Source of the DNA: Leuctra nigra
Taxonomy: Eukaryota > Arthropoda > Insecta > Plecoptera > Leuctridae
Direction of reading: 5' to 3'
Length of the DNA stretch: 64,000 bases
Assembly (NCBI GenBank): GCA_934045905.1
Contig: OW203770.1
Location: forward strand, 806,001-870,000
This document shows, piece after piece, positions 57,276-58,136 of this stretch. How positions within the stretch are numbered: the stretch's first letter is position 1; each line of letters opens with the position of its first letter. The notes below the pieces were generated by a model, which ran no database searches, was not told where the DNA came from, and saw only the letters and a program-made list of their open reading frames with translations. A program made the translations under genes and the position numbers.

Positions 57276-58136
57276 ATGGATACAACGTGTACGTCAACCC
57301 TGTGGTCCCCCCAGAGCCTAGGCCTGCAAGAAATCCTGGTCAACAACTGCCCTTAACATCAAATGGCCATAATTTCTGCACTGGTTGAGGAGGTAAATGA
57401 ACTAAGACATATCCTAAAGCAACTCTGTGCCTACACATCATTCCCTTTAGAAGATAATGATGATTTAGCTAAATACCCGCACGTGGTCCACCATGAAACT
57501 TCATTCAAAACTCAACAGATGGCAGCTTCAACAACTCACAAAAGTTCCCACAACGCCCGGCAGATAGCAGCACTCAGCAGCACAGCTCCCGGTATTGCCG
57601 CCATTACTGCCAAGTCTGCCAACAACTCAGAACCTAAATCACCAGAAAACTGCATTACTTTAGTTAAGGGAGATTTATTCCAAGCTGGACCACACATGGT
57701 TTTGGTCCACAGCGTTTCTGAAAATCTGATGATGTCACAAGGCATAGCAGCTGATTTCATCAAGCATTTTGGCAACAAACAACATCTTTTGGACCAAAAC
57801 TGCCAAGTTGGAAACTTTGCAACCCTATTCACAAATGGCCGCCTTACCATACATCTTATTACTAAGAAAAATCATTATAATACTCCCCACTACAAAGATG
57901 TCAAACAAGCCCTACTCAACCTAAGACAATTCTGCACTTTCCATCATATCAAAAATCTTGCCATGCCTGAAATCTGCTGCGGACTGGACAAGTGGAAGTG
58001 GCCAATGATGAGAAACCTCCTCCACAACATCTTCATGCACACCGACATTAAAATTACAGTTTTCACTCCCCCGACCTCTTGTGCCAACGACAACATGTCT
58101 GATTGTCAGGTAGATGCTGTCTGTACCTTCTCATGA
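57276..58136 (+). pseudogene. retrotransposon ORF1: coiled coil plus macro domain
   Basis: The frame starts at ATG 57276 (MDTTCTSTLWS), has an in-frame TAA at 57354-57356, and is then open from ATG 57363 to TGA 58134-58136. Numbered from 57276: residues 30-50 are a heptad-like ISALVEEVNELRHILKQL; 60-120 are Ser/Ala-rich; 124-266 are a macro domain of the TARG1/OARD1 type. Visible motifs: ITLVKGDLF, LVHSVSENLMMSQGIAADF, HLITKK, MPEICCGLDKW and IKITVFTP. Human TARG1 removes ADP-ribose from proteins with a catalytic Lys and Asp; the matching Lys (one of 57864-57869) and Asp (57987-57989) are both present. Likely role: binding or reversing ADP-ribosylation for the element; inferred. Confidence 0.85.

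Follow-up and report, generated by a model that had tools for sequence, protein, structure and literature searches.

Human TARG1 (OARD1, C6orf130) is a macro domain enzyme in which Lys84 attacks the ribose as a nucleophile and Asp125 resolves the intermediate, and Thr83, Lys84, and Asp125 are its named active-site residues (PMC6397177; articles are cited here by PMC number). Macro domains are also carried by genetic parasites among the RNA viruses, such as alphaviruses (nsP3), Kadipiro virus (VP8), and viruses named after thrips; here, the carrier is a retrotransposon. For the CR1, L2, and Jockey lineages of LINEs, Metcalfe and Casane sorted ORF1 proteins into types I to V, with RRM, CCHC, L1-type, PHD, and esterase features (PMC4120745). 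The word "macro" is absent from the text of that article, and since type V holds the unclassified ORF1s, the ORF1 described below could belong there.

The nearest precedent in kind is ZfL2-1, a LINE with an esterase-type (type IV) ORF1. Like our element, it is a LINE whose ORF1 combines coiled coils with a hydrolase domain and lacks a structural RNA-binding domain, but its hydrolase is a lipid-binding SGNH esterase, whereas ours has an ADP-ribose fold (PMC3905857). The accessory ORFs of bdelloid retroelements likewise place one enzymatic module in several retroelement types; however, these are a GDSL esterase and a DEDDy exonuclease, encoded in a separate ORF3 and not in ORF1 or Pol (PMC5408684). 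Among the articles listed in searches of the open-access PMC literature, judged from these listings, we found reviews and unrelated papers but no report of a retrotransposon with TARG1, OARD1, or a macro domain.

Layout of the element and its macro domain

The window is the whole stretch of DNA that was analysed, 64,000 nucleotides of Leuctra nigra (C9:806001-870000 of a 536-Mb, 144-contig assembly). It contains a LINE with the following parts, residues being numbered as in human TARG1.

About 57.1 kb to 62009 (+): the LINE
57276..57353 (+): possible N-terminal piece of ORF1, by translation in the same frame as the macro domain, severed by the TAA at 57354
57363..58136 (+): ORF1 open frame with the macro domain (Pfam Macro)
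57651..58067 (+): TARG1-like macro domain
57861..57866 (+): codons matching Thr83 and catalytic Lys84 (Lys84 at 57864-57866)
57975..57977 (+): Cys codon where TARG1 has the phosphate-loop Gly121 (10 of 12 families have Gly)
57987..57989 (+): codon matching catalytic Asp125, a residue unchanged in 12 of 12 families
58129..58380 (+): likely ORF1 continuation in another frame, Ser/Thr/Pro-rich and basic
58383..58859 (+): ORF1 end, again in the macro frame, basic with few acidic residues (net +16 over 158 aa)
58259..58564 (+): array of 45-nt repeats giving 15-residue units (spacing 45, 44, 45, 45, 42)
58913..59818 (+): first part of ORF2, APE-type endonuclease (Pfam Exo_endo_phos_2, 1.5e-10; Exo_endo_phos, 7.8e-9)
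59926..61713 (+): second part of ORF2, RT, in another frame in the window copy (Pfam RVT_1, 9.9e-34)
61714..62009 (+): 3' untranslated region with a TAAA-type repeat at its end (61975-62009), which is the element end

A sequence-only reading of this locus had proposed a retrotransposon ORF1 at 57276-58136 with the motifs ITLVKGDLF, HLITKK, and CCGLDKW. All three motifs were found in the single open frame 57363-58136, and both the frames and the Pfam matches confirmed that this frame is collinear with the endonuclease and the RT. The proposed span is, however, open only from 57363, being interrupted by the TAA at 57354, and ORF1 probably extends beyond 58136, as Ser/Thr/Pro-rich frames with 15-residue repeats continue to 58859. 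Macro is the sole Pfam domain over the cut-off in the ORF1 frames, and the repeat array and the ORF1 sequence downstream of it are basic and Ser/Thr-rich. The presence of APE and RT in ORF2, seen by Pfam and as a continuous frame in a close copy (L017), is that of an APE-type LINE. The coding strand is G-poor, with a GC content mostly above that of the flanks. A search for target-site duplications gave a longest exact flank match of 8 bases, found only once, the 5' end of the element not being fixed. In codon use, the macro part is nearer to the RT than to a second LINE of the window (z 3.37); against an ankyrin-type gene, the RT is not clearly the nearer one (z 1.66). The ORF1 tail showed no such likeness to the RT in the same comparison.

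The window copy is damaged, ORF1 having, besides its stop, frame changes near 58114-58136 and near 58381, and ORF2 having one between about 59716 and 59818. L017 is 99.485% identical to the window over 3,686 aligned columns from window position 58329 onward, a comparison that includes the second break of ORF1 and that of ORF2 and lies downstream of the stop and of the first break. It crosses the second ORF1 break in one frame and has no stop from APE to RT (3028-5829). Because L017 is open across both, these two breaks are private to the window copy. If half of the substitutions that separate the window from L017 arose in the window copy alone, the macro domain should hold about one of them; judging from this one pair, most departures from TARG1 thus probably predate the window copy and were already present in the active family. 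In a neutral simulation of stop codons, 2.75% of 400 runs were stop-free at 40% identity, a result of little weight as long as the capture is not dated.

Several lines of evidence relate the domain to TARG1, and its assignment as a macro domain greatly exceeds chance. With human TARG1, phmmer gave an E value of 5.3e-28 over residues 88-235 of the frame 57363-58136, the gapless alignment holds 56 identities in 139 positions, and the Pfam Macro score is 24.3 bits for a cut-off of 22. An AlphaFold2 model based on an alignment of 51 homologues, taken from protein searches, had a pLDDT of 91.5, while a single-sequence prediction (44.7) was of no use. Foldseek matched the predicted fold to 4j5q with a TM of 0.90, TARG1 ranked first in both Foldseek and VIA, and the modelled fold is a TARG1-type macro fold. 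In a viral structure library, the best match was Kadipiro virus VP8 (TM 0.90, 35% identity), followed by flavi-, virga-, and negev-like viruses named after thrips, whereas alphavirus macrodomains are more distant (TM about 0.7, 13-17% identity).

Both the Lys and the Asp that the sequence-only reading had described as kept are in place. Among 15 aligned TARG1 residues with a role, 11 are retained (Asp20, Leu21, Phe22, His32, Ser35, Ile44, Thr83, Lys84, Pro118, Gly123, and Asp125) and four are changed (Cys33, Leu47, Gly121, and Tyr150), Leu152 being outside the aligned stretch, and 26 of the 37 family columns conserved at 80% or more are retained. In contrast to TARG1 itself, the window domain is embedded in a LINE ORF1, has Cys at Gly121, and reads Ser-Gln at Gly41-Ala42 of loop 1. 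Its net charge is +6. A published scan pattern for TARG1, TKx(30,35)Px[IL]GxGxD (PMC6397177), was not matched by the window domain, in which PEICCGLD has Cys at the first Gly, and since the pattern is missed at this one glycine, we file the domain as TARG1-like and not as a member. By eye, the alignment rows of two relatives, L041 and L056, match the pattern.

Other features were seen in the same window. A match to eukaryotic 18S rRNA (23760-25201) covers the full model range in only 1442 nt and is overlapped by an antisense frame (23256-24041) that reads by eye as the end of a LINE RT. A second LINE of another family (27528-32029, minus strand) has, by eye, a 1030-aa ORF2 frame and, with repeats of the SGSSNISEPHEQ type, an ORF1 frame of 477 aa. 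By eye as well, an uninterrupted 1444-aa frame at 10327-14661 (minus strand) resembles a P-loop (NACHT-like) and ankyrin-repeat protein, and 63439-63867 (minus strand) is a C-terminal RT-like fragment of another LINE.

Relatives across the genome

A search of the assembly with the RT gave at least 76 matches (74 scored among 10,982 candidates), and 20 loci were fetched, six from the window subfamily and 14 from sister families (RT about 53-71% identical). Alignment of the six window-subfamily copies starts at window positions 58329, 58862, 59502, 59621, 59795, and 60350, so all six lose alignment before the macro domain, and it ends within 61997-62009 for five of them and at 61890 for the sixth. 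The element is an APE-type LINE by its dispersed copies, with their common 3' end and 5' truncation. Two further matches of this subfamily lie at C11:8219144 and C1:60011598. Copies of the same RT family that lack the macro domain, which the sequence-only reading had named as evidence against itself, were met only as the six 5'-truncated fetched copies.

The expected recurrence of macro domain and RT as one unit was observed in 7 of the 14 sister loci (L028, L029, L030, L032, L033, L034, and L036), where a macro domain lies upstream of APE-RT, with profile E values from 4.5e-45 to 1.3e-18 for the main macro frame; in L034, the macro domain follows a SAP domain in an intact frame of 533 residues. 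Six of the seven sister loci without a macro domain were read by eye, and in none of these six did a frame of at least 90 residues look like an ORF1. L024 and L027 have no frame of this length at all upstream of APE or RT, L025 and L035 have upstream pieces resembling other RTs, L026 has a frame of another kind, and L023 has one upstream frame of 128 residues without assignment. No full-length member of the sister group with a different ORF1 was found in this small sample, which was read by eye. At least 13 of the 76 RT matches have a macro domain within 5.5 kb upstream on the same strand, as detected with a TARG1-like query (P0020) that misses divergent domains such as those of L028 and L029, and no other order or strand arrangement of macro domain and RT occurs among the 76.

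P0020 itself had at least 150 matches in the genome (150 scored of 367 candidates); 142 of the 150 matches listed have no stop inside, in open frames of up to 2,914 residues, and an APE match was present in 16 of 30 loci from this set. The description of a LINE with a macro domain was true but too narrow: many families carry the domain, some of them with a retropepsin-like protease. Judging by their sequences, eleven further divergent families sampled here have a TARG1-like domain, and most are recognisable mobile elements. The L053 group combines SAP, macro, and an RRM-like end, and the L041 group SAP, macro, and a GDSL esterase, each with APE after it; the RRM-like ends, like the coiled coils, were recognised by eye and had no Pfam match. 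L065 and L066, LINEs by inference, have PHD, macro, and a GDSL match below the cut-off.

An aspartic protease followed by the macro domain, an arrangement of the LTR-type Pol, was found in the relatives L037 and L039, in one frame, and L042, in two pieces. In L039, Asp_protease_2 is at the cut-off and RVP_2 just above it, in the same frame as the macro domain, and the frames of L038 and L040 are nearly identical to that of L039. L042 has Asp_protease_2 above the cut-off in its upstream piece, its frame being broken within the macro domain, and the four protease families matched in the macro frame of L037 are all below the cut-off (best E 1e-4). Past the L042 protease, the first residues of a possible RT gave weak PDB matches to the retroviral polymerase 7sr6 (E 0.047) and to the Ty3 RT 4ol8 (E 0.16).

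Some further features were observed among these relatives. SAP, a TARG1-like macro domain, and GDSL, that is, two hydrolases, occur in one ORF1-like protein in L041 (877-2550, minus strand; by Pfam) and in L043, L044, and L048 (by sequence likeness to it); compared with ZfL2-1, L041 has the macro domain and then the GDSL domain within the same protein. Tandem short repeats (ISAKGAVP-type and SASPVHLAS-type) follow the macro domain in L039 (1-2712, minus strand) and L047 (1378-2817), as do the 15-residue repeats in the window. G000 C3:11495194 and ten more places have an identical TARG1-like score, nine of the eleven lying in frames of 2205-2275 aa, and they likely represent a recently active element.

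Conservation and origin of the domain

Among the 41 macro hits in 50 genome loci and the window, 33 copies are full-length; they represent 18 distinct proteins, which cluster into 12 families at 90% identity. The 8 partial hits of the 41 were excluded from the family counts. APE is present in seven families (window, L041, L034, L056, L033, L028, and L029) and a protease in L037 (weak) and L039; L065 was put with the LINEs by inference, and L045 and L047 were labelled LTR-like from likeness and by eye.

All 12 families retain Lys84 and Asp125 despite synonymous changes in the codons of both (AAG in 8 and AAA in 4 for Lys84, GAC in 7 and GAT in 5 for Asp125), so the selection check suggested earlier turned out in favour of the two residues, and neutral decay of the catalytic residues was sought in the 12 families and not found. 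Nine columns are invariant (Phe22, Gly43, Ala45, Thr83, Lys84, Pro91, Cys107, Asp125, and Trp129), and eight of them use more than one codon, Trp having a single one. Lys and Asp had been singled out before the columns were counted, and the chance that both fall among nine random invariant columns of about 138 is about 0.4%. The closest pair, L039/L047, has a dN/dS of 0.156 (dS 0.80, dN 0.125), and five pairs with high dS (1.6-3.0) have values of 0.17-0.34. Synonymous sites are saturated in 60 of 66 family pairs, and the one well-estimated dN/dS below saturation comes from this LTR-like pair and not from a LINE pair. Most families were found through their likeness to TARG1, which biases the set to conserved copies; L028, L029, L033, and L034 were reached through the RT. 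Five of the 12 families have Asn, Thr, His, or Tyr at Gly123. L028, L029, and L033 have lost Gly123, Pro118, and His32, which may alter the geometry of binding or slow the turnover.

In a 70-row tree, the window domain falls on the vertebrate side (SH-aLRT 90), with odd composition and a very long end branch of 2.42. The sequence-only reading had proposed that a LINE captured a host macro domain. All 12 element domains are on the vertebrate-OARD1 side of a 53-row tree (93/86), with moderate support at the deep forks, but the host gene itself was not recognised among at least 150 matches to fish OARD1 (query P0061; 150 scored of 378 candidates). The best nine of these matches are in frames of 330-551 aa, six being macro places upstream of an RT match, and short-frame candidates for a host OARD1 lie at C1:65807230 (205 aa) and C5:6592947 (167 aa). 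That side also takes in P0020 and two phage rows, so an origin in prokaryotes or phages is conceivable. Relatives of the domain include 34 phage and 3 plasmid records; none was found in prokaryote and viral contig collections. A protein search with the 257-aa frame gave one hit of 127 candidates, and one with read-through gave no hit among 31 candidates.

LINE and LTR-like domains are mixed in the 53-row tree, L039/L047 standing beside the window, L041, L056, and L065 (92/91), which makes an exchange of the domain between element classes possible. Topology tests rejected neither a single element clade (p-AU 0.357) nor a single LINE clade (0.148), and since a single element clade is not rejected, one capture and repeated captures are both compatible with the data.

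Proposed role and alternatives

We consider it reasonably probable that the LINE ORF1 with its TARG1-like domain is an ADP-ribosyl hydrolase carried with the RNA-protein particle, removing mono-ADP-ribose added by the host. Lys84 and Asp125 would catalyse the release of ADP-ribose as in human TARG1. The macro domain, in ORF1 or beside a protease in Pol, would be brought along by the particle to where reverse transcription and integration take place; such delivery is suggested because ORF1 proteins are thought to bind the RNA of their element, and the basic repeat tail could be the contact with RNA. Host transferases might mono-ADP-ribosylate the particle or the nicked target DNA, and the domain would erase the mark. 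The benefit would be that ADP-ribosylation on DNA ends or silencing factors is undone: TARG1 removes mono-ADP-ribose placed on DNA ends by PARP3 (PMC5725667), and SIRT6 is reported to mono-ADP-ribosylate KAP1, silencing LINE-1 (PMC4695847). That the module also occurs in frames with a retropepsin-like protease is what one would expect of a benefit shared by retroelements. The departures from the TARG1 pattern, including the change of Gly121 to Cys, count against the predicted hydrolase.

These departures lead to the idea of a reader, and not an eraser, which would bind ADP-ribose at PARP-marked breaks or chromatin and tether the particle there, so that target-primed reverse transcription can proceed, while catalysing little. 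Both loop 1 and the GxG phosphate loop have been reshaped, with Cys at Gly121 in the window and Gly123 replaced in five families, SAP and PHD domains adjoin the macro domain in relatives, and PARP2 reportedly aids LINE-1 integration. However, a pure reader would have no need of both Lys84 and Asp125, which are invariant in all families while binding residues vary, and we regard this explanation as unlikely, although deserving of attention. It seems to us rather improbable that the domain serves a purpose outside ADP-ribosylation, for instance in binding RNA or assembling multimers, and keeps the catalytic residues for its fold. ORF1 proteins commonly bind RNA (PMC4120745), the window domain is positively charged, and several of the invariant Phe22, Gly43, Ala45, Pro91, Cys107, and Trp129 look structural, but the active-site residues Thr83, Lys84, and Asp125 (PMC6397177) are kept while their neighbours vary. 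TARG1 also hydrolyses O-acetyl-ADP-ribose (PMC5725667), and a small-molecule substrate of this type would mean that NAD/sirtuin metabolism is altered near the element and no mark is removed; by reasoning, a particle-bound enzyme would hardly shift a diffusible pool, and we hold this to be very improbable. Finally, chance insertion of a LINE beside an unrelated macro-domain gene or pseudogene, for which one might cite that all six fetched copies of the window subfamily stop short of the macro domain, is ruled out by the sister families, as the domain lies directly upstream of APE-RT in several independent families and in at least 13 of the 76 RT matches, in no other arrangement.

Beyond the hydrolase proposed for this element, we put forward, tentatively and with a little less than even confidence, that in this genome retroelements of unrelated classes share a pool of ADP-ribosyl-hydrolase modules that stem from animal OARD1 and have passed between the ORF1 of LINEs and the Pol of LTR-type elements, ADP-ribosylation of particles or integration sites being a general defence or integration checkpoint that the elements erase. 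Should it be active, the domain would also give the poorly understood ORF1 proteins another class of captured hydrolase, next to the SGNH esterase and, in one group, fused with it. If the domain is active, ADP-ribosylation would hit retrotransposons often enough for many families to maintain an eraser, the link between PARP or sirtuin marks and transposon control would become directly testable with a small purified domain, and the arms race known from viral macrodomains would extend to endogenous elements.
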